Notes under the pieces: model-generated
The model's input: only the letters and a program-made list of their open reading frames with translations
The model's database searches: none
Told to the model about the DNA's origin: nothing
Program-made: the position numbers and the translations under genes
Shown here: positions 1 through 58,077 of the stretch, piece after piece
Position numbering within the stretch: position 1 is the first letter of the stretch
Layout: each line of letters opens with the position of its first letter
Source: Polytrichum commune
Taxonomy: Eukaryota > Streptophyta > Polytrichopsida > Polytrichales > Polytrichaceae
Assembly: GCA_950295325.1 (NCBI GenBank)
Contig: OX485808.1
Coordinates: 5,148,501-5,212,500 of the forward strand
DNA length: 64,000 nucleotides
Reading direction: 5' to 3'

Positions 1-2520
1 TCAAGGCCGAGCGAATGCGATCCCAATACGCGATCAACGGTTCATAAGTATTCCTAACACGTTTGGTGATGTCTTCCTCACACAACTCTTTCCAATATTC
101 AATGAATCCGGATATGCCTTTGATGATTTCCGGCCCATTCTTCATGGGATCGGGTTTACAAGGCTTTGGATCCCCATCCGGGAGCAAACATTTTCCATCC
201 TTGTTCTGACGCCACACGAGTATCCCATCCTCCGGACACCAATTAGGAGATGTGCACAAAAGCTTAAACTGCATAGCAGGGACACCATCATCCCTCATAT
301 AGAAGCGGAATTGTTGTGCTTTCGTGTGTCCCACCAAACGGTCATCTCCCTTCAGCATGTATAGCTTGATGAAGACCTTGAAATTTGGTACTTCCTCAAT
401 CATGTGCGGGATTACGGGCACATTGTCCAAATCCATGTATGATTTCATAAGAAGCGGTATGGTGGGAAAATCCTCTTCATGCAACTTCATGCTCCAACGT
501 CCAAATGACGCATCAATGTCATCGTGTGTGTGCCCCACCATCAAGAAAGATACAAACACCTCTTTGAATATGCCTTTTGCCACAAGCAATGACAAAACAC
601 ATATCGACATTTGTTGTCTTTAGCACAATTATCAAGTTGAACATGGAGAGTTGGAGGCAATGGTTTTGCACAAATGGGTTCTCCACGTGGTTCCGGCAAT
701 GCCGACATACAAACCTCCTTCCCCTGAAGCACTGCCTCGTAAAGGGGTGTCGTTCCACAACCATCAAAAAGCGCACGGGAAGAGTGAATCGGCGGCTTCT
801 CAAGATCGCGCAAGAGTTTTGCAAATGAACCAACCGTGTGGTTGGCATCACCAGGGTAAAAATCCAAACCATAATGGGCATATTTAACGTCCCCATGGCC
901 GTGGGCGATCATACCTGAGAAAAAAAAACGATGGATGAACAACAAAAATATGGTATAACCACTAAACAGACGGATGAAGTTTGACATATGGCAAACAAAC
1001 CCAAAAACATTGGAAATCCTTTCAAACACATTTGTGATTCCATACGAACCTGTGACAGCTACGGGCAACTTGAAGAGACCATCCGTGGCTTTAATTTTGC
1101 GTGCATAACAAGGGCATGCGGTTTTGGCATGGTCCATTTTATCATGGATGACAGTTAGGACCTCCGCATGCCTCATTATGGATAGTGCACGATTCTTGTA
1201 GTAATCTTGACGGTGTGCCTCCTGGTTGTTGACATGCTCAATGTATTTTCTTTGGTGTCTTGTATGGGACTCGGTGCCTATAGGATGGGCGTCTCGAAGA
1301 CCTTTGTACTTTTCACACGTCGTACACCTGGCAAACTTGTCCCCGGGTCTCTTCAAAATGTACTCCGCAAACTGTTGGTTTTTAATTACACTCAACTTGG
1401 ACAAAGAAATGGGCCCACACCCAGCTTTGCGACCCACTTCGTTTATGTCCGTTAAGATGTTCTTCCATTTTGTGCCCGTGGGCAACACCATTTGGACAAC
1501 TTTCTCCCCGGAGGACAATGTCCTCGTCTTGTGGGGCATTGCATCGGCCAACGGGACTATGATGGTGGAGAGTGTCGCGGAGGCTTGGAGTGTAGCCTCT
1601 CTAGGTTTCTTGGTGCCCGAGTTGCCATGAAATCGAGAACGGCGTCCCAACAAAGAATACTTCCTAAACCTATAAAAATCAGCCTTGGAGACTGCATGGA
1701 TGGAATACCATGCTGTGCAACACACTTCCACATTCTCAAGGGTAACCACCTTATTGCCATGGCTGTCAACGTGCAAATTTTTGTGGACCTCGAGTTTTTT
1801 TGCCGACCTCATACGAAAATCCGCAAGCCACATCTCTTGCCGAAAGGACCTAATTTTTTCACGCGGAAAGAATTGACAACATTTCTTCGCACAACAGTCC
1901 TTTGTGGATACTTGACGGATAGAGTCCTCTCCAAGTATGGAATCCCGTCTACGTTCTTTTTGTATGCCAGACACGCGACTAGAATCGTATTTGCGCAGAC
2001 CTTTGCGAGGACGTCTTGCGGCCAACAAAGCTGACTGCGTTTGCTTGTGCCGTCGCCCATGATCCCACAAGCTTACTTCTTCATGGAGAACTCGACGCAG
2101 GGGCCATCGCCGCAAGGAAAATCTCCAAGTCAACGGGACTTCCAACGGAAGTAAAGAATTCAAGATGCAAACGCCAACATCATCCAATCCAAGGGGGTTG
2201 GCATCAATACATTCAAGGGGATCGGAGTTTCTACAAATGCCATTTGCCACAGGGACACCATGCTCGTTCAGAAGAACAACATCAAGGCCCACCCACTGCT
2301 CCCTCCCGAAACCGGCACACAATGGAATGTGGTCGTTATCATCCCCATAATGTTGGGAATGTTCCTGCCCTTCCAAAGATTCATGGGAGGATGTATCCCC
2401 AGACACACCCAGGACGTTAGCCCCTCGAATATAATCCTCCGAAGGCGAAGAGAGGCGACATTCCGTATCCGACGACGATGCATTCGTCGACAACTCAAAT
2501 GCACTATCTCCCATATCCAT
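1..2520 (-). pseudogene. DUF7869-like transposase, copy A, partial and frameshifted
   Basis: The protein runs leftward from the ATG at 2520 (MDMGDSAFE) and leaves the window at base 1. A 135-bp GT-AG intron lies at 915-1049: the donor follows GTCACAG, the acceptor is TTTCTCAG, and splicing joins VAVTG to MIAHGHGDV in frame. Visible features are an acidic N-terminus, a Cys pair (RCTTCEKYK), a first acidic motif (VIHDKMDHAKT) and QLDNCAKDN. Near 589 a 7-nt deletion relative to copy B shifts the frame just after KCRYVFC. Past it, GHTHDDIDASFGRW is still readable in another frame. The pattern fits the family I recall as DUF7869, an RNase-H-like transposase-type protein. That assignment is from memory and was not searched. 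Confidence 0.7.
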
Positions 2521-2929
2521 CACAAACCCACCTAATGACGCGAACATGGAATCACAACATATATAAGTCAATCACAAATACGACAAGATTTTAGTAAACC
2601 TAAGTCACAATAGAGCACAAGTCACAGTGGGAATAACAGAACGATCGTCTGCATGCAGACACGCTTCTGTTTGAGTTGGGCATATATACGAACGGGCGTT
2701 CAAATGTTCCCCGTCATTCTGTATGTCAACTAAAACATGGACCGTTTCAATTGTGCAGGGATACCTGTTATATGCCTACACACAACTTCCGAGAGTCATT
2801 GACGCATATGAATGTATTATTCCATGTGCCCCAAATACACATTCCTCGCCCATACTATGTGTATGTGGAGCAAATGGAGCATTTTCCCACATCCCGCAGT
2901 CAATATCCAGATACATTCCCTGAATGAAT

Positions 2930-3535
2930 TCGAACGCACGTTCGTATTTATGTCTAATATTTTGTTGTAAATACATATATATTTGTGTGCGTGCCCAGGG
3001 AGGCGTGATGTATGCATCGACATACTCCCAGGTGGAAATCACGAACGCACGTTCGTAAACTCTCGCTCATCTTATGTATATCTGCTGAAATCATTGATAT
3101 TTTCGACCTTCTGTTTGCAAATTACTATCATATTGTATGTACATCTTCATACCCCTTATATCCATGAGTATATGGATTCTGAAAATAAGCGGTGTCACTT
3201 ACGAACGCACGTTCGTAAACTCTAATGTCATTTCAGTATGTACCATACACCGTTTACGCGCATTCAATATTTACGAACGCGCGTTCGTAAACTCTTGCAC
3301 ATTCCCAATGTTCTTCGGATGCTCAAAATGTACATTTACGAACGCTCGTTCGTATATGACTTTCATATTGTCTGTGCCTATGCATAATCATATCTGGGTC
3401 TATACATTTATGGATGTAAAATATACGCCAAGGCGGTATTTACGAACGCACGTTCGTAAACATCCAACCAACCTCGATATATCTCATCCACAAACACACG
3501 CGCGCACTGCAGGTTTACGAACGCGCGTTCGTAAA
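2930..3535. repeat. Inverted-repeat site array upstream of transposase, copy A (7 sites)
   Basis: Seven copies of arms TTTACGAACG and CGTTCGTAAA around a 2-bp spacer lie near 2930, 3040, 3200, 3271, 3335, 3439 and 3513. Spacers vary (CA, CA, CA, GC, CT, CA, GC) while the arms stay almost fixed. The array sits between the transposase ATG and a conserved non-coding block at 3540-3800, where a leader intron would be expected. Confidence 0.9.
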
Positions 3536-3539
3536 CCCC

Positions 3540-3800
3540 CGGTATTTGCGGCGGTATTTGCGGGATAAGGTTGTCTGCCACCTATGAGTGTACGGTTCAC
3601 GCACAGGAAACTGGCTCGAGCGCCCTCCGTCGGGTGTCTGGAGCGCACACTTGGTGTCTCCCGCAAAAAAGAGCTCTGCAATGGGGGGGAGAGCTTTAAG
3701 TACTCCTCTACCGTGGTTCAAAATCCCTTGGATTCTCTTTGAAAAGCGGATTCCCGCCGCCTACTTTAACCTAACAATATGCCATTCTATTCATGCGGGA
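3540..3800 (-). promoter_or_regulatory. Conserved non-coding block, probable transposase promoter/leader, copy A
   Basis: This block is strongly conserved with 47665-47945 in copy B although no ORF is shared. It has GCGGTATTTGCGG units, GTCTGGAGCGCACAC, AGAGCTTTAAGTAC and a TTCAAAATCCCTTGGAT stretch. It lies upstream of the minus-strand transposase beyond the site array, mirroring how 5600-5880 lies upstream of the plus-strand gene. A promoter or first-exon role is inferred from position and conservation. Confidence 0.45.
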
Positions 3801-3924
3801 CATAAATAACTTTCTGTATTGAATATGTATGGCATGTACGCATTGATAATATGTTCATCCGTTCCACACCTTAGGTGTTACCAAGGTTTCCCGAACCAAA
3901 AAATAAAATGTATATTCCTATATA

Positions 3925-3952
3925 CATATCGATGTATATATTTACTTATATT

Positions 3953-3988
<36 letters not shown>

Positions 3989-4205
3989 AATATATATCTA
4001 TATATATCTATATATATCTATATATGTGAATATATATCTATATACCTATATATATATGTGAATATATATCTATATACCTATATATATGTGTGAATATATA
4101 TCTATATATCTATATATATATGTTTTTTACATATATCTATACTTTACATATATATACATTACATGTATCTACATTACATGTATCTACATTACATTTATGT
4201 ACATT
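3925..4205. repeat. (TA)-rich microsatellite
   Basis: Long TATATA and TATATCTA runs followed by repeated TACATTACATGTATC units. The apparent small ORFs of Tyr/Ile repeats here are a by-product of the repeat. Copy B has a much shorter TA-rich stretch in the matching place (about 48030-48130). Confidence 0.9.
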
Positions 4206-4540
4206 ATTGCGGCAAATACTCACCAAGTGCATGAACACCAATAAAAAGTCTGGTGAATTCATGCAAGCTACTAAGGTAGATTAAGGAGATGAATTCAAAC
4301 CATGCCTAGATATACTTTATATCTTAATTCAAATGCAACTCTAGGTTTGCAAATAGTGAATTGATTCAACATTGTGTGGAAATGTTGAATTAATTTGGAA
4401 TGGTGCATAAGATAGTGTAATGATATGAATTGAAACCATACCTATATGGAGTCCCACTTATGCATTGTGTAATTAAAATGCACTCAACACTATTAGGTTG
4501 GATCACAACATTCCCCCATATAGTGCGGATGGTAAAAAAA

Positions 4541-4577
4541 CCTAGGGGTTTAGGGTTTAGGGTTTAGGGTTTGTGAG
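4541..4577 (+). repeat. Interstitial plant-type telomere motif
   Basis: Four or so consecutive GGTTTAG units of the plant telomere type, in the spacer between the two divergent genes. Copy B has degenerate runs at 49419-49500. The flanks are unique DNA, so this is not a chromosome end. Confidence 0.75.
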
Positions 4578-5590
4578 GGATGTGCATGTCCAGTAGTTCA
4601 TATAACAGGGTTTACATACAAACTATATTCACTACTCATAAATCCATATTGCACTAACTTAATTTATTTGTAGCTTACATTTGATGCGAGCCAAACTTTC
4701 AACGATCACCATATTCTGTAATTGGGGACATTTTCATGATTTTGGATACTATTTCAGAATATGGTATTCAAATAAAGAACAAGTAAAACACAAGAATACA
4801 TTCAATGTGACACAATAAAGCGATTTGCATGGGCAACACTAACCAATTTGGCACAAATGCATCTCATCCGAATAAGAATTTGAACCACATATTAAATTAT
4901 TTGCATTTATTTTGAGACTTTCCAAAGTCTCGGATTAACAAATATAATAATAAATTTAATGCAGTAGTTCAAGTTCACACATAATAAACTGAATTGAAAG
5001 CCTAGTATTTGAAATTGAATTTTCCCGCACCTCTTGTAAGAAAATCCTAAACCGTTCCCACCAATCTTAAATCGGGACCTTTATGGATCTTATATTAAAT
5101 TATTTGAGGAACCATTTAAAAACTTGAAAGATATTTCAATTATGAGAACACTATATATTTGAAAACACCATATTAATACACATCGTTGGGGGTAGGGTTT
5201 TCATCGAATCCCTAGTACATGATGTGCAATGTGGAAATTGAATTCATACTCCTTATCTAGAAGATGTTTATAATGAATCCAAAGTAGATGAAGGGGATGT
5301 AGCATTTAAAATGCATGTTTTGTACTGGACTCCTTATGTTTATGTGATGGAGGCATATACATATTAAAAAGCTTGAAATTAACGTGCCTTTATTGCTTAT
5401 ACATCCAACTTAGATTATTTTCGTTAATTAGAGAGTTGGGAAAGTCTCAAACTAAGTGCAAATGGTGTAATATATAGTTGCATTTCTTATTGTGATGACA
5501 TAGATTTATGTCAAATCGGTTAGTGCCCCCCATGCAAATCACTTTATTAAGTCACATTGAATATATTTATGTGCTTTGATTACATTGAAT
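4578..5590. other. AT-rich spacer of copy A, no gene seen
   Basis: No coding signal. At 4914-4931 there is an 18-nt inverted repeat (GAGACTTT-CC-AAAGTCTC), and with its flank GTTAATCCG it is an inverted copy of the subterminal sequence at the left end of copy B (42805-42840). A second, degenerate copy in the opposite orientation lies near 5420-5455. Confidence 0.6.
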
Positions 5591-5599
5591 TACTAAACC

Positions 5600-5880
5600 C
5601 CAATGAATTCCAACCCATCCCCCCCATCCACCCATCCCACACCCCATGCTATCTCCCCATCCCATCCCCTCATCTTCCTAGCCCGACCCATCCCTTCCCT
5701 CCCCAATGGGAAGCGGCCATGTGGCAGCCCGAGGGAAAACCCTAGAGGCGCGGGCTACCTCCCCGCGCCCCCTCCTCTCCTTCCTCATTCTCATTTGGAG
5801 CAGAGAGAGGAGGAGCGCCGCGTTGGTTTAGAGTTTAGAGGCGAAGCTCTTGCATTTTTTAGTTTTGTGTAGTGCACTTC
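5600..5880 (+). promoter_or_regulatory. Promoter/5' region of the ParB-FCP1 gene, copy A, with telo-box
   Basis: A C-rich pyrimidine tract (CCCATCCC repeats) is followed by GGCCATGTGGCAGCC, a telo-box AAAACCCTAG (5736-5745) and GGCTACCTCCCCGCGCC, then CATTTGGAGCAGAG. The same order recurs at 50480-50680 in copy B. Telo-boxes (AAACCCTA) are known elements of plant promoters for growth and translation genes. That this drives the large gene at 7098 is inferred from position and conservation. Confidence 0.6.
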
Positions 5881-6576
5881 TTTTGTAGGCGCAAGTGTTG
5901 AGAGTTATTGACAGTCCCTTGAGAGTTGCAGCTCAAGAATAGAGAACTCGAGTTAGAAGAGTTTAAAGTTTGTAGAGTTTAAAGCTTGAGAGTTGGAAGC
6001 TTAAGATTAGGATACTCAAGCTATAAGCTTGATAATTGCAAGTTTTAGAGTAGCAGCTTGAGAAATACTGCATTTGAAATTGCATATACATCAGAGTCTT
6101 AGTTAGGGTTCGTACATAGCATGCAACAACTAGTGTGAAGGCAATTTCAGTGGTGCAGTGGTGCATTTGACTTTCAAATCACCTTGCTTTTGTGGGGTTT
6201 CCTGGGGTTTTCAACAAAGGAGCAAGCAGCTTTTGGGTGTGTAAAATTTCAGAGTAAGCACAATATTCCTTCCCTTCTCAAATCCTTCACAGTCTATATT
6301 TGTTCATTATTGAATGGCATGTGTTTTGGAAGTCAAGTTCGGATCCTCGTTCTGAATTCTCTGTCACATTCCAAGTGTATATGTTTTGATTGTATTGTTT
6401 TTCTTCAATCTCACCTTTCTGACGAACACTTGCAGGCACAAGTGCAAGCTTTGCTGAGACACAGCAAGCAAGACCTTGCCATATGTATGTATACGAATCC
6501 GTATATGTACGAATCCGTATATGTACGGACACTATATTGTTATTATTAATTATATATATAAAAACAAACAACAGGC
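5881..6576 (+). other. Untranslated leader region, copy A
   Basis: No convincing ORF. Degenerate repeats of GTTTAAAGCTTGAGAGTTGGAAG type occur at about 5900-6060, matching the clearer 5' leader repeats of copy B (50720-50940). A short direct repeat of GTATATGTACGAATCC lies at 6490-6530. It probably contains non-coding first exon sequence. The main ORF begins directly at an AG acceptor (GATGCAG then ATGG at 7098), implying an upstream leader exon. Confidence 0.4.
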
Positions 6577-7068
6577 TCATTTACGAACGAGCGTTCGTAA
6601 ATACCTCTACCGCGCACAATATACACCCATTTACGAACGCGCGTTCGTAAATGCATAGGCCGCGCAAAATATATACCATTTCACGAACGCGCGTTCGTAA
6701 AGATTCTTTGGAACCCAAGGACTACGTTTACGAACGTGCGTTCGAAACTCTAAATCCAAAATGGAGGGATATATCCATGCTGTAATTCATATAAGTACTT
6801 AAATCCAATCACAACACTAAATTTAACTCAGTAGGTTCCACAATATCGCATGACTTTACGAACGCGCGTTCGTATAGTTATGTACAAAATACTAATAAAC
6901 AGGTATCTCATATTACGAACGCGCGTTCGTGAAAGATGTGAACCAATGTGAATGCATTAGAAACACCCTGAAATGCATAAAGCATTCAAAACTTCGTATT
7001 TCCAAAAACCACACTATGAAAATAATATGCATGGCACGGTGTTGTTTACAAACGAACGTTCATAAAAG
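6577..7068. repeat. Inverted-repeat site array in the leader of the ParB-FCP1 gene, copy A (7 sites)
   Basis: Sites near 6580, 6631, 6682, 6727, 6854, 6913 and 7047. Most keep perfect arms. The last (TTTACAAACG ... CGTTCATAAA) has lost two CpGs to CpA. The array ends about 30 bp before the ATG. Confidence 0.9.
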
Positions 7069-7097
7069 CAATTATGATTTGCTCTTGTGTGATGCAG

Positions 7098-8393
7098 ATG
7101 GCTAAAGCTAGCAGAAACGCCATCGACTTGTTCGCAGTGCCAGTGGAGCGCCTTCCAGAGGGCGTCTCGGATACCAATGGGAACGACAACTATGTCCCAA
7201 AAGAAGAATTCATGGCTGAGTGGACGGCCATCCCCACGAAGACCGAGGAAGGGTTGTTTGCATTGCGATTCACTTATGAGCTGCAGACAAGGGCTGACCA
7301 ACCAGACCAATGGGTGCAGACAAAGAATTGGGAGATAGAATCCGCAGAGGCACAAGGAGACTTTGTTATTCTGGATATGAAAAATAAAAAAGACCATGTG
7401 AACCTCCTCTTAAACTACCTATTGCACCCATTCTCTTATGCTTATGCATGCAATAATGTCGCATCTGATGCGAAACATTTCAATCTGGATGCTCTCTTCA
7501 CCAAATATGCCCTGAGTCAACACTGGACGGCGAGGAAGTTGACTGCCCTGACCTTGAATGTTTCGAAGTACAACAGTGTTGCCGCGGAGGCAAATAAAAA
7601 AAAGAAAAGTCCGAAAAAACCAGCTGCTTCGGGGGCAGGAGGATCGAGAAGTGCTCCGCGGCCTGTGCCTTCGGGGAGCAGGTTGACAGAAGGGCCCAGC
7701 AGACAATCCACTCCATCCAAGAGGTCGAGGGACGAGATGGAGAAGTCCGGATTGACGGAAGGCGCTGAGGTTAGTTCTCCGCCAGTGATGCCAACCCCTT
7801 TGAAGAAGGGAGAAAACCCAGACGCTGCCAAAGCGACAAAAATCCTTCGAGACTTCAACAACTACTCCAAGGATTGCTGGCCTATGGGACGCCACTTCAC
7901 TTTCAACGTGGATTGTTTCAAGTGCGAGAAATCTCCTAACAAGTGGGTGGTGAGGTCTCGTGAAAGCGGAGGGGTGAAGTGGCAGATTAATAACCTCATG
8001 AACAACGTGAAGTGGGATAGGCAGACCGTCTACGTGATGCCCAAGGGTTTTTTGTCACGCCCCACTGAGAAGGATTGGCCAAGAATCCAGAATGGAGAGT
8101 TCTGGATAATCGATGGACAACACAGTCTAGAGGCGTCACAGATCATCCTAAAGGATGATAACTTCCAGCACGAGCTCAAGGCGGACCTGCGCTACTGGAA
8201 GGCGTTTTTGGTTTGGTCTGACGACTGGGACAAGCTCCGCAAAATATCGACATTTTTGAATTCCGGAAACAAGATCAAGGCATTCGAGGCCTCCTGGGCG
8301 GCGAATACAGTGGCGGTCAGAGACGTGTGGGTCGCGCACGGATGCCCGCCAAAAGAGAGGGAGAACGCCAAGATGCAATCTCCACAGTGGAAG
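7098..8393 (+). CDS. ParB-MTase-FCP1-like fusion, exon 1, copy A (ParB-like domain)
   Basis: 432 codons from ATG 7098 (MAKASRNAIDLF) to a phase-0 donor AAG/GTGAG. The ATG directly follows an AG acceptor in both copies, so a leader intron probably ends there. Residues 1-160 form an unrecognised domain. A Lys-rich, Ser/Pro-rich linker with a likely nuclear localisation motif (NKKKKSPKK) spans about 165-240. Residues about 260-430 look ParB/sulfiredoxin-like, centred on GEFWIIDGQHS (D339, H342). Known ParB/DGQHR proteins have Arg where this has Ser. ParB-type domains bind DNA at inverted repeats, and this element is full of them, but binding is inferred. The exon is fully open in this copy. Confidence 0.7.
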
Positions 8394-8516
8394 GTGAGTT
8401 TACGAACGAGCGTTCGTAAAGCATATGTTGCATTAAACAATTTCTAAATTTTCCAACTTACGAACGCGCGTTCGTATTTAGTATTGAACACTGACGTCCT
8501 CGTATGTATGTTGCAG
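8394..8516 (+). other. Intron 1 of ParB-FCP1 gene, copy A, two inverted-repeat sites
   Basis: GT-AG intron (GTGAG ... GTTGCAG), 123 bp. One site begins directly after the donor (GTGAG then TTTACGAACG) and the second lies at about 8458-8479. Copy B has the same arrangement (53528-53643). Joining restores QWK-AFCDAM in phase 0. Confidence 0.8.
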
Positions 8517-9837
8517 GCGTTCTGTGATGCGATGGTGGACAAATTCTCCTCCATCGACATGAAGTCCACAAGCACCAAATCAGTTCTGGAGCTCAAAGGT
8601 GAGCTCCGTCTGATTTGCTGCAACAGAGACACCTGGGAGTTGTGGACCCAGTTCTTCGACGCTCACAGCTCGGGCGATCTGGTGAACCCAGACACAGAAG
8701 AGAAGTACGCTCAAGAGAAGAGCGGAGAGGCCCCGCCTCTACTGCGGGAATTTTTTAGGGCCCTGCAAGGACTGACTGAATCAGAGTTGCAGCGATGTGC
8801 GGTTCACGTTCTTGGGAACACCGTCGGAAGGACCATCCCTTATCCCAAGATATTTTTGAAGAGACCAAAGCACAAGCCCGGCACGTACTCGATCAAAGAG
8901 TGGTGCGACCACAGGAAGCTAAAGACCGCTGCGGGAGATTAGCGGCCTATTGCCTGAGATGCACCTTTTCCAGGCCGACGAAGATATCAACTGGGCGAAA
9001 TGGAAGGAGTTCAAGGCGCTGTACAATATCAACGGTGCCTCAATGCGCAGCCTGGTGAAGGAGCACGTCGCCGTCCTGAAGCTCAAGGGAAACAAAAGAG
9101 CAAAAAAAACAGAAACGGAACCTGAAGAGCTTCAACGGTACATCTCCTTCTTGGAGAAGAAGAGGAACGCCACCTTCGAGGGCGTGGCAAGATTTTGTGT
9201 GGTGACCACGGGGCTGGAGAGGACCACGTTTTCCAAGTGGGATGGCACCTTCAGCAGGTCCGAGGTCAGGGAGGATCGAAGGGGTTGTCCCTTCGCGGTC
9301 ATCGACTTCAGAGGGATACCCGGTGCCTCGCGACAGGGCGCAAAGGGGGAGCCTTTTTACAACCCTTTCATGGCGAAATTCATGGAGCACAAATCTCCGA
9401 CCATGAGGGAGCCGCACGTATGGCTGTGGATTGTGGAGCAGGAGAAGCAATCCGTCGTCATCGATTTGTATGAGAACAAGATCAAGTTCGAGTACAACAT
9501 CTTCCACAGCACATACGTGCCAGCGAAGACGGAGGGAATTGTTGCCGTAAACGAGGCCAGAGGCAACAGGCAAGTGGGAGCGGTGAGCCTCATCTTCTTG
9601 ACGTACAATGCGCTTAGGAATGGGCGAGCACCCATAAAGGCGATCAACACATTCAAGAAGATATACAGCATCCCTCACCCACCTCCAAAGGATCTCTTCC
9701 AGGAGACTCTGTACACTGTCTTCCCGGCGCTGGAGCTGAGGATGGAGTTCTACGTCTCCATATTGCAGGGTTTGGCAATGACTGGCGAGACTGTCTACAA
9801 CGTATTTGGAGGCAGCAAATTTATGTACGCGGCCATG
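8517..9837 (+). pseudogene. ParB-MTase-FCP1-like fusion, exon 2, copy A (methyltransferase-like; 5-nt deletion)
   Basis: The exon is 1321 nt against 1326 nt in copy B. The difference is a 5-nt deletion at about 8928-8934, after HRKLKT, which shifts the frame; the reading resumes from 8950. The second half resembles a beta-class N4/N6 DNA methyltransferase: CPFAVIDFRGIPG where DPPY motif IV is expected, then HVWLWIVEQEK, then IPHPPPK (compare HPTxKP), then ETVYNVFGGSKFMYAAM matching motif I (DPFxGSGT). Motif I continues across the next intron into MLGLCMNTYIDAVDEEDY. Both signature motifs are degraded, so methyl transfer is doubtful. ParB plus methyltransferase fusions are known in phages and bacteria. 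Confidence 0.6.
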
Positions 9838-10024
9838 GTAAGCCATCTCACACCACTTTTTACGAACGCTCGTTCGTAAACACTGCATGCTCCAAACAAT
9901 TTACCATGGGCAGCCGATACTTATGATTGTTTTGTAAATTGTTTTTTATTATTTCCTCGCTCAAAGCCTTCATGTTTACGAACGCGCGTTCGTAAATGAC
10001 TGAATCTTTGCCTTCTTATCTCAG
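9838..10024 (+). other. Intron 2 of ParB-FCP1 gene, copy A, two inverted-repeat sites
   Basis: GT-AG intron (ATG/GTAAGCC ... TATCTCAG), phase 0, with sites at about 9858-9880 and 9974-9996. The equivalent intron of copy B (54970-55141) also has two, both degenerate. It splits the methyltransferase-like motif I region. Confidence 0.75.
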
Positions 10025-11467
10025 ATGCTGGGGCTGTGCATGAACACATATATTGACGCCGTCGACGAGGAGGATTACAAGTTCCACAGGACAAAAACAT
10101 CGACGATGGACCTAGCTGACATGTCCGTGCCCAGAACGGACTTCAACATGCCGGCCGATGAAGGCATGCCGCCCATGGAAACAAACGACGACGAGCCTGG
10201 CCACTCCGTCAACGTCGATGCCATCCTCCAGGCTTTGGATGTCACTCCTCTCCGGTTGTTGGCCCCATCGGGGGAGCCTTCAGAATACCAAGGGACCCCG
10301 GCTAGATATACTGGATCCTCGGCGGGTGCCACCCAGGATGTCCTCCCCGCGCTTACCTCAGGCGCGGAGCCCTTCGGCACGCCAGGAGGTTGTTCGACGC
10401 CAATGTCCCTCAAGCAAAGGCTGGCGGTCCCGAAAATGGAGACCCTCGATGTCCTCGACCAATGCTCCCGTCCCACGTTGGACCTATTCCGCAACACGCG
10501 ACGGAGGATGAAGAAGACCCCGTACGTGGAGTTGCCCGAGGGGGCGATCATCGAGGTCTCCGACGAGGACGAGGGGGACATGGACATTATGGTCGAGCTT
10601 GGGGTGGAGTTCGACAAGAACAAGAGGGTCAAGGAGGAGGCCCTTTCCGTTGCCGAGCTTAACGCAAAGCTCGAGCAGAAGATGAAGGAAGACATGGCTG
10701 CGGCTGCAGAGGAGAATGCCCGGAAAATGAGAAAATTTGAGGAGGAGCTGAAGTCCTCCAACGAGAAGACGGACGCCATACTGGCGATGCTGACCAGGCT
10801 GCAGAACTTTGCAGTGGCCCCTCAGGCAGCATTCCCATTCCCTACGGGATACCCCATGCACGGTCCTTTCCCGGGAGGGCATTCCTACCAGCCAGCGCCC
10901 CACCCAACGCCGGTGGGGACTCCTCCACCCCCTACAATGCCCACGGACACCGCCAACATACACGACGCAATCTCGGCGGCTATCCGTGAGGATGAGGATT
11001 TACGAACGCACGTTCGTGAATCTTCAGGTCCAACAGTCCTCACCCCACCCCCACCAAGGGTAGGACTGCCTTCACAGACGGACACGGCACCTTTCACCGT
11101 CGTCCCCAGTTTACTAGATAGGACAAGGGGTGATGATACTGCGCGACACACTGACTTGGTCATTGTGGAGGACACGCAGGGGAGCCCGAGTGACACCGCA
11201 GGCGTCCAGAGGATGGACGTCGAGGACAGCCCTGCGGAAGACCGACATCCCCCCGCATGCATTGGGGACGTGCACATGGAGACTCTCGACCTGGGTGGCG
11301 AGGAGGACGACATACAGCAGACCCAGACGTCTCAGGCGGCGCGTGCTGACGACGTAATGGAGACTGAGGCACCTGCGGCGGCGGATGTGACGAACGCGCG
11401 TTCGTTAATCGCTGAGGAGGGAGCTGCCGCTCAATCCAGCGCCGCTGGCCCTCCCTCCGATGACGAG
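10025..11467 (+). CDS. ParB-MTase-FCP1-like fusion, exon 3, copy A (acidic, coiled-coil, Pro-rich)
   Basis: 481 codons, phase 0 at both ends (CAG/ATGCTG to GACGAG/GTAACT). The first 20 residues finish the methyltransferase-like fold. Then come low-complexity segments, an acidic patch (EVSDEDEGDMDIM), a coiled coil (ELNAKLEQKMKEDMAAAAEE) at about residues 210-260, a Pro-rich stretch, and an acidic Asp/Glu-rich tail. Two inverted-repeat sites lie within the coding sequence in frame: one at about 10999-11020 gives DLRTHVRES, the other at about 11388-11406 gives TNARSLI. Both are also present in copy B. Most of this exon is probably disordered. No enzymatic function is visible. Confidence 0.65.
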
Positions 11468-12058
11468 GTAACTCATCTTTGAGACTACCGCATGCATTTA
11501 CGAACGTGCGTTCGTAACATCTCTAACCACATGCGTTGTGTTTTTGGCGCGTTGTATACATCGGCATCCGAGACCTCCGATAGCCCATTTTTGCGTGCTT
11601 CCTCAGGTCGACCAGTTTTGTAGGACACGGCATCTTGTTGCCCTAGGAACCTGTACGATAGATTATCATCTGAGACAAACTGTAAATTTTCACGGAATTC
11701 ATATAAATGAAACATTTTTTTGCATCGAATCGCGTCGTCTTGCATTGGTTGTTTTGTGTATGTTCATGCGGGTTCAAATCTGTTGTGCATTTCTGCCTCG
11801 TTCACGAACGGACGCTCGTAAAAGGATGCCACCCCGCGACCATCTCCTTCACGAACGCCCGTTCGTAAATGCACTATAGGGTTCATTCACAAATGAACGT
11901 TCGTGAATGGTGCGCATGGTCACTGCTGGCCTTTCACGAACGATCGTTCGCAAATGTACCCTTGTTCTCGCCCTTCGTCTTTTTCCATACTGCATCTTCA
12001 TGTTTGCTAAATTCTTTATTGGATCATAGCATTAAACTAGTCGAATTGTTAATCACAG
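11468..12058 (+). other. Intron 3 of ParB-FCP1 gene, copy A, five inverted-repeat sites
   Basis: GT-AG intron of 591 bp (GAG/GTAACTC ... TTAATCACAG), phase 0. Sites near 11496, 11801, 11850, 11887 and 11932. Copy B also has five here (56597-57198). The ORF readings within this intron are shadows. Splicing joins DDE to DPPEIGR in frame in both copies. Confidence 0.75.
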
Positions 12059-12826
12059 GACCCCCCGGAAATAGGTCGCAACCCCTCCACCAGTGGACCT
12101 CAGACCCGAAACAAGCCGTTCATCGTGTTTGACCTCAACGGGGTGTTGTGTCACACCGAACACATCCCGAGGGTCCCCACGCGTCCCTTCCATCACCCCG
12201 ACGAAAGGGACTATGACGGCGAGCTCGACACCCTAATAAACCGCAAGGCTGGCCGCGCCCGTCCCGGCTTGCGCGACTTCCTTCGCGAGGTTGTCGAGTT
12301 CGCCCACGTCATTGTGTGGAGCTCAATGGTCATGGAGAACACGGAACCCATCGTCGACTTCCTATTCCGTGATCTCCCGAGCTCTTGCCTTGTCCTCGGG
12401 CAAGAGGACTGCGATGAACTACTCGACGAAAAGGGTCTACCGGTTCCCAAGTTCGGCGGCCGAGGCCGAGGGCAACAGTTCCTCAAGGTCCTAAGGTCCA
12501 GACTTTGGCGCGGCGTCCCCCGGCTTCAGGGGACCCCCCACGGGTGGTGGCCTACTCCGGAGAACACCCTCCTGGTCGACGACAGCCCCGCCAAGAGCGT
12601 TTTGAACCCCCCGGGCAATGTCATCTTTCCCGACACGTGGACCGGAGATAGGAAGGACGCATTTTTGGTCGATACGCTAGCGCCGTACCTTAGAAGGCTT
12701 GTCCTCCACGCCGGTAGTATCCCCTTTTTTGTTAGGTCCAACCCCATCGGCAATGCGGGACTAAGCCCCCGCGATAATGTATACAAGAGCATCATGAGGC
12801 TCGCGAAATTTAATAAACTCATTTGA
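12059..12826 (+). CDS. ParB-MTase-FCP1-like fusion, exon 4, copy A (FCP1/HAD phosphatase-like)
   Basis: 255 codons plus stop. The domain begins KPFIVFDLNGVLCHT (Asp at exon residue 25) and continues with RPGLRDFL, VIVWSSM (HAD motif II Ser), a Lys region (FLKVLRSRLW) and LLVDDSPAK (HAD acidic motif). It ends LAKFNKLI. The order fits the FCP1/NIF-type HAD family, which removes phosphate from Ser/Thr of partner proteins such as the RNA polymerase II tail. The second Asp of the DxDx(T/V) signature is Asn here and in copy B, so catalysis may be weak or absent. It is open in this copy; copy B has a stop. Confidence 0.75.
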   Translation, partial: DPPEIGRNPSTSGPQTRNKPFIVFDLNGVLCHTEHIPRVPTRPFHHPDERDYDGELDTLINRKAGRARPGLRDFLREVVEFAHVIVWSSMVMENTEPIVDFLFRDLPSSCLVLGQEDCDELLDEKGLPVPKFGGRGRGQQFLKVLRSRLWRGVPRLQGTPHGWWPTPENTLLVDDSPAKSVLNPPGNVIFPDTWTGDRKDAFLVDTLAPYLRRLVLHAGSIPFFVRSNPIGNAGLSPRDNVYKSIMRLAKFNKLI

Positions 12827-12939
12827 AATATCTTCATGTATGTGCGTGTTATCATTTGGTTCACATATCTAACGCTTCATCCGTTTTTGGATGTCTTTGT
12901 TGTCTGTGTTGTTGTTGTTATTGTTGTTGTTCCCCATAG
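12827..12939 (+). other. Interval between phosphatase stop and downstream module, copy A
   Basis: Contains a GTT-rich tract ending CCCCATAG that looks like a 3' splice acceptor; copy B matches (CTTGCCCATAG at 58077). The matching donor was not identified, because exon 4 ends in TGA before any clear GT site. Confidence 0.4.
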
Positions 12940-13449
12940 TTTGCCCCCATATGTGATGCCCCCGTCCTCGACGGCCTTTCCCGTCCCCCCTCGTCCCCAG
13001 GCTCCCCTTCCCGCGGCGTGACATATTCCGTGATCCCCTCACTCTACCACTTCTCGGCGGTGGATGCAGCCTCGGCCGTGGACTACTCCCGGGACGTCGA
13101 CGACGGTGTTGTCAACAGCCCGCCCCCCAGGGTTGTCCCTCGGGCGTTCGCCCCGTCGCCCTCCCCCCTCTCCAAGGAGAAGCGGACGCTCGTTCGTTTG
13201 GGGCATGTGTCGCCCTCGAGGGACGACGCCATCGCTCGTCGTGGGCCGAGCCGACGTCTCCACCTGGAAGCAACCCGGTGCGACCCCTCCCCCGTCGTCC
13301 CCGTTCCTCCTCCTGCAAACCCATCCCCGGTCGTTGGCCCTCCTTGCCATGCTTCCCCCACATTACTGAACAGTGCCGCAATTCAACCGGATTCGTATGC
13401 TCTCCTCGACGCCCCCATCGTCCCTGGGATCGATGTCACCAAATCCAAG
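12940..13449 (+). CDS. Downstream Pro/Ser-rich module, exon 5, copy A
   Basis: 170 open codons between an acceptor-like CCCATAG and a donor-like AAG/GTGCCC, conserved with copy B (58078-58602, 175 codons). The shared core reads FSAVDAASAVDYSRDV, then VNSPPP, SPSPLSKEKR and RRGPSRRL. It is basic and Pro/Ser-rich with no fold I recognise. It may be an alternative 3' exon of the large gene or a separate transcript. Conservation of frame in both copies supports coding. Confidence 0.5.
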
Positions 13450-13600
13450 GTGCCCTTCTTTGTCCCTAAACCCATATTCACCGTTGCTTTCCTCTTTGTC
13501 TGTGCGTGCCAAGAGGTTTACGAGCGCCCATCCCAAACCGCCCTTCCTCATTTTCCCCACTCCGTTCTTATTATTATCTTCCTATGGCGTTTTTTGGCAG

Positions 13601-13909
13601 GTGGCTCCCCGCTCGCTTGGTGGCCAACCCTCCTCGACTTCGTCAGTGCCAAGGCACGCCCTCAAGGCCGCATCTTCCGAGTCCGATCGTTCTCTGGCCC
13701 TCCGGAGAAGCGCAAGACGTTCCCTTTCGCAAACGCCCTCGTATTCTACTTATAATACCACCTCGTACAATTCGGGAGCGCGTCCTGAAACATGCAAGAA
13801 CGACACATATTCCTTTCCAGGCAACACACAAGGATACAGTCGTGGGCCTGAGATTTTTAGAGCCATGGAGGCCGCCCAAAAAAAGGACTTAGCCGCAAAA
13901 AAAAAATAG
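13601..13909 (+). CDS. Downstream module, exon 6, copy A
   Basis: 103 codons including the stop, beginning right after TTTTTTGGCAG and in phase with exon 5. The core SESDRSLALRRSARRSLSQT and the end MEAAQKKDLAAKKK are shared with copy B, where one base is missing near the end. It is basic and Ser-rich; function unknown. Intron 5 (13450-13600) keeps a half inverted-repeat site (TTTACGAGCG) in both copies. Confidence 0.5.
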   Translation: MAPRSLGGQPSSTSSVPRHALKAASSESDRSLALRRSARRSLSQTPSYSTYNTTSYNSGARPETCKNDTYSFPGNTQGYSRGPEIFRAMEAAQKKDLAAKKK

Positions 13910-14311
13910 TGGGTCGGACTAGTGTGACTAGAAGCGTACTAGTGGGACGGGCTCCCTAAATGGGCTTAGGTGTAGAACATATTTAAGTGCTTACTTTCTA
14001 TGCTATTCCAAGTTACTCAAGACATTGATGGTATTTCCATTATAATTGTATTTCTATCCCAATTAATTCATTCAACTTCCATTCATTCTTCGCATCTTCC
14101 CTTCCATTCATAACGAGTTGTCATTTCATACGCAACTATTTTCATGTATGCCTCACATTTTTTTTCACTTCCATGCCTTTATGTATAATAATAGTAGCAT
14201 ACCATTATACATATGGGATTTTTAGTCGTCATTACTGGTCCAATTTTGAAATGTGCATCCTTATATAGTCTCATAATCAACAAAAAGTCTCCAAATACCG
14301 AATATAGTGTT
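13910..14311. repeat. Right terminal region and right TIR, copy A
   Basis: About 400 bp with only about 9 substitutions relative to 59051-59452, ending in the terminal inverted repeat (14281-14311, reading inward AACACTATATTCGG). No ORF. Next to the right end is ACAT, the expected right-hand target duplication. Confidence 0.85.
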
Positions 14312-24062: not shown

Positions 24063-24066
24063 TAAT

Positions 24067-42792: not shown

Positions 42793-42840
42793 AACACTAT
42801 ATTCGTTAATCAGAGACTTTTGAAAGTCTCAAAATAAAAT
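42793..42840 (+). repeat. Left TIR of copy B with GAGACTTT inverted repeat
   Basis: The TIR runs from 42793 to about 42823. Overlapping it, 42813-42830 is an 18-nt inverted repeat (GAGACTTT-TG-AAAGTCTC), a possible transposase binding site. It recurs in inverted orientation at 4914-4931 in copy A. Confidence 0.75.
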
Positions 42841-43203
42841 ATGCCCATGGTTTGGGATGCCAATATTGTGGGCATACGGAATATTGGGAACATCAAGAAC
42901 ATGACGATTTAAAATTTCGTATGTAAAGCATATTCTTATTACTAAAAATAGGGAATTTCATTTAAAATGAAAACGTGAGCTCCTTGTGGAAAATAACAAT
43001 CGACTCTAAAAAAACAAATGGTTTATGTCATTATAGAGTTTGGGGTGCACATCCCATAAGTATGGCTCTTATGAATTATTTGGATGGCACATCCCAAACG
43101 TATATACCATAATGGAGTGTGACAAGTCCACTAAGTCTAATAAAAACCAAGTCTACTAAGCACCCATGTTTTTCGCCATTAACTCCCACCTAATATGTTA
43201 TGT

Positions 43204-46200
43204 TTACACATCTCCATCTTCCACTTCATATCCATTCTCGGCGTCATTCATCGCAGCTGCAATACGTGCCAAGTTGTCTTTGGCAAAATCTATATGTTTT
43301 TGGGGGATGGTCATTGTTTTTGATTTGGAACCTTTCTGCGGCTTCCAAGCACAAAGTATAGTATCCGTGTTTATCCAAACCGGTGTGTACGCTGAGTCCA
43401 CTGTCCACTTAAAATTCTTCTTGGTGTCCCAACCTAAATAAGTGCGTAGCACATTTTGGTCTTTAGTGCTTGGACGACAATATTCCACCTCAATTTGACG
43501 AAAATTGGGGCTAGTTCGAACAAAATTGGGTGAAGACAATGCTTTTACCAACCAAATTGGCTTGGGATGCTCCTCATCCCCTGCTCGTACGAGGACTAAA
43601 TAACCTTCATGGCAATCAACACCTACACGAAACGATGGTGCCGGTCGATTGCGGGCAGGGCCAACGTAATGCTCGTCCATTGCGAACTCTTCACGAACGT
43701 CTCCATTGCTAAAAAACATGGTGTTGGACTCGACAACCGTTAAACGGCTTTGTGGCCAAAATCCTTGTGTTAAAGTTGTACGGGTGTCGCCACCAAGTGT
43801 CATTAGGGCCGAGCGAATGCGATCCCAATACGCAATCAAAGGTTTATGAGTATCTCTAACACGTCTAGTTATGTCCTCCTCACACAACTCTTTCCAATAT
43901 TCAATGAATCCGGATATGTCTTTGATGATTTCCGGCCCATTCCTCATGGGGTCGGGTTTGCAAGGCTTTGGATCCCCATCCGGGAGCAAACATTTCCCAT
44001 CATTGTCTTGACGCCATACGAGTATACCATCATCCGGGCCCCAATTAGGAGATGTGCACAAAAGCTTAAATTGCATAGCCGGGAGACCATCATCCCTTAT
44101 ATAAAATCGGAATTGTTGTACTTTGGTATGTCCCACCAAACGGTCCCCTCCCTTCAACATGTATGGCTTGATGAAGGCCTTGAAATCTGGTACTTCCTCA
44201 ATCATGTGCGGAATTACCGGCATATGGTCCAAATCCATATACGATTTCATAAGAAGTGGTATGGTTGGAAAATCTTCTTCATGCAACTTCATGTTCCACC
44301 GTCCGAAAGACGCATCAATGTCATCGTGTGTGTGTTCCACCATCAAGAAAGACACAAACACCTCCTTGAAGATTCCTTTCGCCACAAGCAAGGACCAAAA
44401 ACAAAATACGTATCGACATTTGTTGTCCTTCGCACAATTATCAAGTTGAACGTGGAGAGTTGGAGGCAAAGGTTTCGCACAAAGAGGTTCTCCGGGTGGC
44501 TTCGGCAATGACGACATACAAACATCCTTTCCCGCAAGCAGTGCTTTGTAAAGGGGTGTCGTTCCACAACCATCAAACAATGCAAGTGATGAATGTACCG
44601 GAGGCTTCTCCAGATCGCGCAAGAGTTTTGCAAATGATCCCACCGTGTGGTTAGCATCGCCAGAGTAAAAATCCAAACCATAATGGGCATACTTAACGTC
44701 TCCATGTCCGTGGGCAATCATCCCTGGGAAAAAACAAACGATCCATGAATGACAACAATAACAACAACAACCCTAAACGGATGTATGAAGTTGAAACCTA
44801 ACGCAAATACATCTAGTAAAATTGGATAGAATTTGAACACATATTTGTGATTTAGGGCAAACTTGTGACAGCTACGAGCAACTTGAAGAGTCCATTCGTG
44901 GCCTTTATTTTCCGTGCATAACAAGGGCATGCGGTCTTGGCGTGGTCCATTTTGTCATGGATGATTGTTAGAACCTCTGTAGGCCTCGTTATGGATAGAG
45001 CACGGTTCTTGTAGTAATCTTGATGGTGAGCCTTTTGGTTGTTGACATGTTCAATATATTTTGCTTGGTGTCTGGACTGGGATTCAGTGCCTATGGGGTG
45101 AGCGTCTCGAAGACCTTTGTATTTTTCACACGTCGTACACCTAGCGAACTTGTCCCCGGGTCTCTTCAAAATGTATTCAACAAACAGTTGGTTTTTAATC
45201 ACACTCAACTTGGACAAAGAAATGGGACCACATTCTGCTATGCGACCCACTTCGTTAATGTCCGTTAATATGTTCTTTCATTTTGTACCCGTGGGCAACA
45301 CCATTTGTACAACTTTCTCCCCTGACAACAATGTCCTCGTCTTGTGGGGCATTGCATCGGCCAATGGGACTATGATGGTGGAGAGTGTCGCGGAGGCTTG
45401 AAGTGTAGCCTCCCGAGGTTTCTTAGTGCCCGAATTTCCATGAAATCGAAAGCGGCGACCCAACAATGAATACTTTTGAAACCTATAAAAGTCAGATTTT
45501 GACACGGCGTGGATGGTATACCACGCGGTACAACACACATCCACATTCTCAAGTGTAACCACCTTATGCCCATGGGTGTCAATATGCACATTTCTGTGGA
45601 CCTCGAGTTTCTTTGCCGATTTCATACGGAAATTGGCAAGCCACATCTCTTGACGTAGGGACTTAATTTTCTCCCGCAGGAAAAACTAGCAACATTTCCG
45701 ATAGCAACAGTCCTTGGCGGACACAAGACGGATAGATTCGTCTCCCAATATGCGATCCCGTCGACGCTCCTTATCTCCTTGAGGCACATGGTTAGAATCA
45801 TATTTGCGTAGGCCTTTGCGATGACGTATTTTGGCCAACAAAGCTAATTGCGTTTGCTTATGGCGCCGCTCATGGTCCAACAAGCTCACTCCGTCATGGA
45901 GAACCCGACAAGAAGTCCATCGACGCAAGGAAAATCTCCATATCACCGGGACCTCAAGCGGAAGCAATGAATTCAAGATGCACACACCAACATCGCTAGG
46001 ACCAAGGGGGTTGGCATCCACACAATCACGGGGATCAGAGTTTCTACATATGCCATCTGCCACAGGGACACCAAGGTCGTTGAGTAGGACGACATCAAGG
46101 CCAACCCATTGCTCCCTCCCAAAACCGGCACACAACGGAATGTCATCGTGGTCATTCCTGGAATGTAGAGATTGTTCGTGCACTTCTGAAGATTCATGGG

Positions 46201-46339
46201 AGGGTGTATGCACAAACTCGCCCATTACGTTTGGCAGACCATTACAACCCGCCGAAGGGGAAGAAAGTTCACACTCACCATCGGAGGACGAAGCAATTGT
46301 GGACAACTCCAATGAACTATATGCCATGGGCAGCGCCAT
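43204..46339 (-). pseudogene. DUF7869-like transposase, copy B (full length, two stops)
   Basis: The gene starts at ATG 46339 (MALPMAYSSLE) and ends at TAA 43204-43206. A 139-bp intron lies at 44724-44862; its donor context is CACAA/GT where copy A has CACAG/GT. Visible features are RCTTCEKYK, TIIHDKMDHAKT, QLDNCAKDNKCRYVF and EHTHDDIDASFGRW, and a long C-terminal region rich in Trp. The acidic motifs could form a DDE/D-type catalytic set. Two nonsense codons interrupt it: TAG at 45686-45688 where copy A has Gln, and TGA at 45278-45280 where copy A has Trp. The 505-codon C-terminal exon is otherwise open. Confidence 0.7.
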
Positions 46340-46461
46340 CCAACCTAAGCAAACCACTAATCAATGACCAAAACAACAAGCACCGCAATGCACACAAAAG
46401 CGAAAATGAGAGCTGTGTAGATATATGGCTCAAAAAACACAAACAACTCTCGCGGCACCGT

Positions 46462-47662
46462 TGGGGGACCTCACATATGAAGACGAACGTGCGTTTGAAA
46501 ACAACGCCATGACATGCAAATACTACGTGGGAATCACACGCCAATGGACAACGGCATTGAATTGTGGTACATATTACCCGTGAAGGGTGTTGGGTCGATT
46601 TGGTAATAAAACATGATAAGGGTTGCCAACCAACAAAAGACAGCATACGCACATATATTCACGAACGCGCGGACGAAAACATCAACCCAACAAACAATGA
46701 ATTGTGAAAGGGATAAGCAATGTGCATTGCTCAGGAGCACCCAAAATGCACCTGAATCATTATCCACATGTAGCAAGCATCGTAATTGAAGGGCATGTCT
46801 TTGACGGGTGTGTGTCTAGGAACAACCGACCCCAAGCTAGAGCCTAAACTGAAGGGTGTATGTATACAAACGATCGTTCGTAAGTCATAGCCGAAACATA
46901 TGGGCGTATGCCTACGAACGATCAATCATATGTTCTAGCAGTGACCGTGTTTGTAAAAAATGTTGACCCGTCGGAAGAAATATCTATAGCCAAGTACAAG
47001 GAGGCATGTGCATAAATGAACGGATATTTCTGTATAATTGGAAAATAATATCAATTGATATTTACGAACGCACGTTCGTGAATATCCGACCATCATATGT
47101 TCAGTTGGACATAACAGATTCACGGGAGGGTAGGTGTCTTTGAGGGTTAAAAGGAAAATATACGAACTCACGTTCGTATATCATTAAACATTTTAGCGCC
47201 TACGACTACCTATAAGTAGTTCAACGTGGAGTACTGTCGAATGCTCTACTTACGAACACACGTTCGTAAACCACTCGCATCACACGAACTTACGTGCGCC
47301 TGTATCTCGAAGGAAATATATACGAACGCACGTTCGTAAATCATTGAACATTTTAGCGCCTACGACTACCTATAAGTAGGTCAACGTGGAGTACTGTCGA
47401 ATGCTCTACTTACGAACGCACGTTCGTAAACCACTCGCATCATACGAACTTACGTGCGCCTGTATCTCGAAAGAAATATATACGAACGCACGTTCGTATA
47501 TAATTGAACATTTTCTTGCCTATGACTACCTGTAAGTAAATCTACGCGGAATATGTCTAATGCTCTAATTACGAACGCACGTTCATAAACCACTCGCATC
47601 ACATCTCTGAACATCTTGTGCCTATGCTACCAACTCATCTTTACGAACGTACGTTCGTAAAC
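46462..47662. repeat. Inverted-repeat site array upstream of transposase, copy B (about 12 sites)
   Basis: Sites near 46480, 46659, 46863, 46911, 47060, 47161, 47249, 47320, 47410, 47480, 47569 and 47640. The first four are degenerate. Part of the array was expanded by a tandem duplication of about 160 bp. Confidence 0.85.
47161..47600 (+). repeat. Tandem repeat, period about 160 bp, each unit with two inverted-repeat sites
   Basis: Units begin near 47161, 47321 and 47481 and share GCGCCTACGACTACCTATAA, ACTGTCGAATGCTCTA and CCACTCGCATCA. The third unit is more diverged. Copy A has no such duplication. Confidence 0.85.
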
Positions 47663-47664
47663 GT

Positions 47665-47945
47665 CCGGTATTTGCGGCGGTATATGCGGGTATGTGCAAC
47701 CTATTGTGTACCTGGGAGGTATAGGGTGGACGCACAAGAAAATGGTTTGTGGTCGTTCCAGTCAGGTCTGTGGAGCGCACACAAACTTGTGCCGCAGAAA
47801 ACAGCTCTGATGTGGGGGGAAGAGCTTTAAGTACCTTCCCCCTGATGGTTCAAAATCCCTTGGATGCTATTTAAAAACCGGATTCCCGCCGCCTACTTTG
47901 ACCTAACAATATGCCATTCCATCCGTGCGGAATAAATAAATAGCA
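47665..47945 (-). promoter_or_regulatory. Conserved non-coding block, probable transposase promoter/leader, copy B
   Basis: Counterpart of 3540-3800, with GTATTTGCGGCGGTAT, TGGAGCGCACACAAAC, AGAGCTTTAAGTAC and GATTCCCGCCGCCTACTTT. No shared ORF. Confidence 0.45.
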
Positions 47946-50470: not shown

Positions 50471-50479
50471 ATTCGTAAA

Positions 50480-50690
50480 CCCTCATCCCTCCCTATCTCC
50501 ATTTCCCTCCCCTCCCCCTCCCCTCCCCCATCCCAGCCTTGGCCAGTGGCCATCAGCCACGTGGCAGCCGCCAGGAAACCCTAGCGGTGCAGGCTACCTC
50601 CCCGCGCCTCTTCCTCTCCTCCTCATTTGTCATTTGGAGCAGAGGAGGAGGGGAAAGCTTAGGTGCGGCGAAGCCCTTGCCATTTGTATA
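50480..50690 (+). promoter_or_regulatory. Promoter/5' region of ParB-FCP1 gene, copy B, G-box and telo-box
   Basis: A CCCTCCCCTCCCC tract, a perfect G-box CCACGTGG (50557-50564), a telo-box AAACCCTAG (50576-50584), GGCTACCTCCCCGCGCC and CATTTGGAGCAGAGGAGG, in the same order as copy A. In copy A the G-box position reads CCATGTGG. Confidence 0.6.
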
Positions 50691-50719
50691 GCCTCATTTT
50701 ATGTTTTTTCTTGGCGCGC

Positions 50720-50945
50720 ATTGTTAGAGGCTTGATAGAAGGATCGCTTGAGAGGTTGAGATTTTTAGAAATCTTGAGAAGGTTGAGAGTTTTAGAAAGC
50801 TTGAGAGGTTTAGAGTTTTAGAAAGCTTGAGAGGTTGAGTGTTTTAGAAAGCTTGAGAGCTTTAGAGTTTTAGAAAGCTTGAGAGGTTGAGTGTTTCAAA
50901 AAGCTTGAGAGCTTGAGAGTTTTAGAAAGCTTGTGAGTTGTGTGT
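50720..50945 (+). repeat. Tandem leader repeats (AGCTTGAGAGGTTGAG...)
   Basis: About seven imperfect units of GAGAGGTTGAGTGTTTTAGA type, 25-30 bp each, in the presumed untranslated leader. Degenerate equivalents occur in copy A. Confidence 0.75.
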
Positions 50946-51433
50946 ACATCAGAATATTTGTAGGATTTGTAAATTAGTTCTGAAGGCTTGAGAGTGTGAG
51001 AAAGGAGCGAGGGTACAAGATTGCATTTGAAAGCGAATTCAGTGCATTTGTGAGGTTTCTGGATTTCTGAGTAGCAGGCAACAGGTTTTGGGTGTGCAAC
51101 AATTCAATGTGAGTAAAAGTTTCCTTTTCAAATCACTTCTTTCCAATCTGAAATTGTTCTTTGTTGAATTCCATGTGTTATGTTTTATGCATTAATATGA
51201 GCTTTGTCATGTTTTGTATGAATTAGGACTTTCCTCTTCATTATGAATTCTCAATCACTGAATCTCAATTTTATTGTCATTCCATATTTCACTTTGTGTT
51301 TCATCATTCTGATCAAGAGTTGCAGGCAGAAATCCAAATCGCAACATTCATAAATCCATACATATGTATTCATATGTATATGTATCCGTATATGTACGGA
51401 CAAAGCATTTATTATCATACACCGATGACCACA

Positions 51434-52203: not shown

Positions 52204-52233
52204 GCAATTTTGAATGTGTCTATCACATTGCAG

Positions 52234-53527: not shown

Positions 53528-53643
53528 GTAAGTTTACGAACGATCGTTCGTAAACCTCTGGTTCCTTTTCAACATTCTTGATCATTTGATTTACGAACGT
53601 GCGTTCGTATTTGGTTGCCCGCTGACATTGCTTTCCAATGCAG
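53528..53643 (+). other. Intron 1, copy B, two inverted-repeat sites
   Basis: GTAAG followed directly by TTTACGAACG; the second site is at about 53591-53612; acceptor AATGCAG. Confidence 0.8.
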
Positions 53644-57966: not shown

Positions 57967-58077
57967 AATTCCTCCATGTCTTTGCTTGTTATCATGTGGT
58001 TCACATATCTAATGTTTGCTCCGTTTTTGGATGTATTTTGTTGTTGTGATTGTTGTTGTTGTTGTTCTTGCCCATAG

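Follow-up and report, generated by a model that had tools for sequence, protein, structure and literature searches.

The question raised by this locus is what the second gene of a moss DNA transposon does, given that its product appears to combine ParB-like, DNA methyltransferase-like and FCP/SCP-phosphatase-like parts in a single chain. The locus is a stretch of 64,000 nucleotides from Polytrichum commune (assembly GCA_950295325.1, contig OX485808.1, positions 5,148,501 to 5,212,500 of the forward strand), which we call the window and in whose coordinates positions are given. It holds two copies of the transposon, at 1..14311 (about 15.3 kb in total, its left end falling some 1 kb ahead of the window's start) and at 42793..59452 (16,660 bp). 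Each carries two divergently oriented genes, A and B, of which B is the gene in question. In our judgement, the chances are about even that gene B encodes a self-recognition accessory protein that would bind the element's own palindromes and counter silencing or drive transcription, in the manner of the VANC proteins of Arabidopsis VANDAL transposons.

In copy 1, gene B is read on the plus strand from four exons (7098..8393, 8517..9837, 10025..11467 and 12059..12826). These borders and their GT/AG junctions, given in a preliminary description of the locus, were confirmed, and aligned borders are found in copy 2 (52234..57966, plus strand; exons 52234-53527, 53644-54969, 55142-56596 and 57199-57966). 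Exon 1 (432 codons) encodes a weakly PH-like region (residues ~33-158), a disordered region (~171-238) and a ParB/Srx-like domain (~255-393) with the motif DGQHS at 8112-8126. Exon 2 encodes a helical region and, from about 9181, a methyltransferase-like fold with DFRGIP at about 9304 and FGGS at about 9805. Exon 3 (481 codons) probably contributes the end of this fold, followed by an acidic, proline-rich region, and exon 4 encodes a NIF (FCP/SCP) HAD domain with FDLNGV and LVDDSP before terminating in its own stop codon. DGQHS, FGGS and the FDLNGV...LVDDSP pair are thus placed as first described.

Pfam, PHROGs, NCBIfam and PDB profiles returned no match over a cut-off for the ParB-like and methyltransferase-like parts, which only the predicted folds showed. 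The predicted fold of the exon 1 part is that of the ParB/Srx superfamily. For exon 2, the model places the strand equivalent to DPPY ahead of the FxGxG strand, as in beta-class amino-methyltransferases, and the domain likely has a methyltransferase fold. The HAD assignment of exon 4 comes from Pfam (NIF, 55.4 bits against a cut-off of 21.8).

The frame of about 1600 codons proposed earlier is disrupted in both window copies and open elsewhere. In copy 1, 5 bp are missing from exon 2 near 8932. Copy 2 is missing 2 bp of exon 1, and its exons 2 and 4 are each interrupted by one stop. We fetched 20 further copies of the same group (group I) and checked 11 exon by exon. Four of these (L009, L010, L012 and L013) have all four exons open, encoding 1,610 amino acids with GT/AG junctions kept. 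The other seven have a stop or frame change in at least one exon or, in the case of L023, L025 and L026, were read from a wrongly set exon 3 start, so that for exon 3 the comparison covers the other copies. In the fetched stretches, tblastn matched all pieces of gene B in 14 of the 20 copies and exon 4 in 15.

All four exons are under purifying selection. Among the listed pairs with a synonymous divergence (dS) above 0.1, the NG86 ratio of nonsynonymous to synonymous divergence (dN/dS) is 0.03-0.06 for exon 1 (5 pairs; dS is saturated in 8 more of 13), 0.05-0.13 for exon 2, 0.24-0.32 for exon 3, the least constrained of the four, and 0.07-0.28 for exon 4. Between L009 and L021, dS is 0.53 in exon 4 against 1.8 and 1.7 in exons 1 and 2, and in pairs from the set L009 to L028 exon 4 likewise shows a much smaller dS than exons 1-2 do. 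Since the same pairs differ in this way, subfamilies appear to have swapped the 3' part of the gene. The case for a three-domain fusion in one frame is strong.

The preliminary interpretation was partly supported, and the key motif of each of the three domains looks altered. Of the 32 rows of alignment A3, 30 span the last residue of the DGQHR-type motif, and all of these have Ser or Thr there (DGQHS in 27, GGQHS, DGQHT and DGQYS in 1 each), the other two having a gap; we take this to be the position of the superfamily's Arg. According to the source, cited like all papers here from excerpts, the active-site Arg is highly conserved in the ParB/Srx superfamily (PMC5512222); gene B appears to lack it. 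It likewise appears to lack a DPPY-type catalytic motif: the equivalent site, placed by the strand order of the model and not by residue-level superposition, reads DF[R]xxP in alignment A1, with D, F and P in 39/39 rows and R in 38/39. The catalytic motif of NIF/FCP-SCP phosphatases is DxDx. In gene B it is DLNG, both in one copy from each of three families and in the group I copies fetched with exon 4 (15 of 20). In view of these apparent changes in all three key motifs, the folds probably serve chiefly for binding or as scaffolds and may have lost catalysis.

If gene B binds DNA, its targets may be sought among a set of palindromes. The window contains 38 exact copies of ACGAACGNNCGTTCGT, 19 in each element and none outside. 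Allowing at most one mismatch raises the number to 55, all within the two elements (shuffle expectation 0.00). The sites form clusters near the 5' ends of both genes and also occur in introns 1-3 and exon 3, but not at the terminal inverted repeats (TIRs). In copy 1 they lie near the 5' end of gene A (2930..3532), upstream of gene B (6583..6930, with a diverged site at 7048), in pairs in intron 1 (8402..8475), intron 2 (9862..9993) and coding exon 3 (11002..11405), and as a set of four in intron 3 (11500..11951), two of them with one mismatch. The corresponding positions in copy 2 are 46866..47658 for gene A, 51437..52199 upstream of gene B, where the cluster is partly tandem, and 53536..57037 for the introns and exon 3.

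These palindromes are under constraint. Between subfamilies, the arms of intron palindromes are 89-98% identical compared with 62-79% for the remaining intron (10 pairs, 5 copies; the first member of a pair served to mark its sites). Across the 20 fetched copies, the arms are intact at 225 sites, and another 36 show one or two C-to-T or G-to-A changes, the only changes taken into this count. The observed/expected CpG ratio is 1.92 upstream of gene B, where the palindromes themselves raise it, against 0.59 in the adjoining spacer.

Two further families of this genome, diverged from the first, keep the order of the exons for the ParB, methyltransferase and phosphatase parts, and each has a palindrome of its own (one copy of each was read; that of L036 has stops). 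In L037 (group II), identity to group I relatives is 43% in exon 1 and 54% in exon 2, and identity to the window is 61% in exon 4; the copy has eight ACGGACGNNCGTCCGT palindromes and one ACGAACGNNCGTTCGT. In L036 (group III), identity falls to 33% and 37% in exons 1 and 2 and 43% in the phosphatase part, and there are 14 TGGGTCGNNCGACCCA palindromes and zero ACGAACGNNCGTTCGT. Another 11 TGGGTCGNNCGACCCA stand upstream of the gene A homologue in L034, the gene A side of the L036 family. In both families the palindromes are found within introns and upstream of gene B; L036 has some in the open frame interpreted as exon 3 as well. We did not count as a family the GTTTCGGNNCCGAAAC palindromes of an insertion in L027 (6814-9604), in which eight exon 1/2 tblastn queries matched nothing.

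Intron read-through peptides of metagenome relatives had also hinted at a different palindrome in each group, and the DNA of the same genome agrees. The patterns are FTNxRS (13) and YERxFV (13) in group I (n=49), FTDxRP (8), YGRxSV (2) and LRPxGRK (3) in group II (n=33), and VWVxRPK (3), VWAGRPK (1) and VSGDRPK (2) in group III (n=7). These group-specific patterns have zero occurrences outside their own groups; a further peptide, LRTxVRK, fits both groups I and II (9 and 4 proteins). The groups were set by identity and the patterns written after the peptides had been inspected; L037 was fetched after the patterns were written, whereas L036 was read before them but after the peptides had been noted. 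As each of the three families combines a distinct form of the protein with a distinct palindrome, the results suggest an undescribed self-recognition system, in which the gene B protein likely binds the palindromes of its element.

ParB proteins are dimers that act on short palindromes. This, together with the parallel to VANC, is why we propose self-recognition followed by anti-silencing or activation. The chain would consist of a possibly PH-like, a ParB/Srx-like, a helical and a methyltransferase-like part, an acidic linker and an FCP/SCP-phosphatase-like domain. A dimer would recognise its own palindromes through the ParB-like and helical parts, load near the 5' ends of both genes and in the introns, mark the DNA as self in a ParB-parS-like manner and keep the element transcribable, either by countering silencing or by acting on transcription. 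Like gene B, VANC encodes a transposon accessory protein, and the motifs in its elements differ among related families (PMC5735166), a likeness seen in motif distribution and family specificity; an anti-silencing role of gene B is suggested by this analogy. In the excerpts of that paper, VANC motifs are family-specific, often tandem and located in non-coding regions, and that of VANC21 has nine bases in a single orientation, whereas the palindromes here are at least 16 bp long and two of them lie in an exon. If the proposal is true, a eukaryotic transposon has an accessory protein made of ParB-like, methyltransferase-like and CTD-phosphatase-like folds. Three natural protein/palindrome pairs in one genome would make specificity and anti-silencing directly testable and would supply new orthogonal DNA-recognition pairs.

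A more far-reaching version, which we regard as improbable, is a full ParB-parS-like system, in which the fusion would load on the family-specific palindromes, spread over the element including the gene body, mark it as self and keep RNA polymerase II active against silencing. Where ParB, Noc and KorB would lead one to expect Arg in the motif, gene B has Ser/Thr. Similarly unlikely is that the gene A transposase or a host factor binds the palindromes, or that they act as DNA structures, with gene B co-diverging by linkage only. Gene A does differ among families as well (55% identity over 152 amino acids of its N-terminal part), but the palindromes occupy gene 5' ends, introns and exon 3 and not the TIRs, where the action of a transposase would be expected.

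It is also doubtful, to about the same degree, that exon 4 belongs to one isoform or a separate transcript only, so that the phosphatase-like domain would not always be in the protein. A further frame at 12940-13480 is preceded by AG and is phase-compatible with exon 3. Its dN/dS is 0.42-0.56 in frame against 0.87-3.2 in the other frames in 12 of 15 pairs (in-frame dS above 0.05; first 540 bases), and 0.38, 0.53 and 0.87 in frame in the remaining three. Because this compatible frame is constrained, splicing from exon 3 may at times bypass exon 4. However, exon 4 has no ATG ahead of its motif, the donor GTAACTC after exon 3 and the acceptor TCACAG before exon 4 are present in 11 of 11 copies examined, and the exon order including exon 4 is kept in the two other families; splicing of exon 3 to exon 4 is likely. 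Behind exon 4, the frames at 12940-13480 and about 13605-13909 are conserved under weaker purifying selection than exons 1-2, and they may be one or more alternative last exons of gene B.

Less probable still is that gene B encodes an enzyme active in DNA modification, with the ParB-like part aiming it at the palindromes and the methyltransferase-like part adding an N6-methyladenine or N4-methylcytosine label. The methyltransferase fold fits this idea, as does a GG[S/T]K core, present in 33 of the 35 A1 rows that extend over the FGGS site. Moreover, phages have fusions of a ParB-like domain followed by a DNA amino-methyltransferase, and ParB-like proteins have been proposed to steer DNA modification to sites (PMC6536676). 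The presence of DF[R]xxP in place of DPPY, as placed from strand order, argues against catalysis. Gene B shares with the phage fusions and polyvalent proteins (PMC5512222) the order ParB-like then methyltransferase in one protein; those are, however, prokaryotic, the excerpts name no phosphatase domain in them, and gene B has no significant PHROGs match and motifs that look altered. That gene B consists of captured gene fragments with no function is scarcely credible, for although disrupted copies are numerous and both window copies are among them, the dN/dS values reveal purifying selection across four exons and the gene is conserved through three families.

Searches for relatives of the gene B protein returned little. 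For the ParB-like and methyltransferase-like parts, the best Pfam profiles were below the cut-off, namely GmrSD_N for exon 1 (0.057) and DUF6551 for A3 (at best 0.012, in 10 of 32 rows), and alignment A2 gave one weak match. A viral fold comparison with the exon 2 model gave no match at E <= 0.001. Scans of viral contigs and of bacterial and archaeal genomes with a few short conserved peptides found no relative; a lone methyltransferase relative could have escaped these scans because the exon 2 peptides came from the N-terminal helical part. A full-length search, with 7,989 candidates scored, yielded P0089 as the sole relative; its sequence continues across intron 1 and does not prove splicing. 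Literature listings, which leave out most subscription journals, showed no paper describing a eukaryotic transposon with a fusion of this kind.

The element itself is defined by the TIR AACACTATATTCG...CGAATATAGTGTT, its ends being AACACTATATTCG plus the complement. This TIR and a 4-bp target site duplication (TSD) enclose both genes in all six copies compared (the two window copies, with the same TIR and the TSDs ACAT in copy 1 and CCTT in copy 2, and L009, L010, L012 and L013). Gene A is on the minus strand, at 1..2520 in copy 1 (extending before the window, end approximate) and at 43204..46360 in copy 2 (several pieces, limits approximate), with 5-2514 being 84% identical to 43807-46327. 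Its main piece matches DUF7869 only in Pfam (3.9e-38), and it is probably the transposase; a search for DUF7869 in the literature covered found no paper using the term. In the 407.8 Mb of genome scanned, at least 131 places match exon 2 of group I and at least 87 match group II, seven large contigs being among the matches, and the element is an abundant DNA transposon that was probably active recently. Its ends read AACACTA..TAGTGTT with a 4-bp TSD in 6/6 copies, which does not match CACTA/EnSpm elements with their CAC..GTG ends and 3-bp TSD (PMC12730594). The wider CMCT clade has TSDs of 2-5 bp, a range that includes that of our element. Fungal DNA transposons carry TET/JBP accessory genes thought to counter silencing (PMC12730594), a likeness in having an accessory gene, with another domain and another host; DUF7869 is not named in the excerpts.

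A few further features of the window may be mentioned. An Rfam scan gave no match. The element spacers contain short TTTAGGG runs, presumably of the plant telomere type, at about 4540-4575 and 49420-49450. Between the two elements, direct repeats of 2,166 bp (21898-24063 and 31273-33438), 99.95% identical and 7.2 kb apart, look like a young long terminal repeat retrotransposon. Finally, minus-strand frames at about 37574-40972 carry a SWIM-like CxC..CxH motif, and we take them to resemble MULE/FAR1-type transposase genes.

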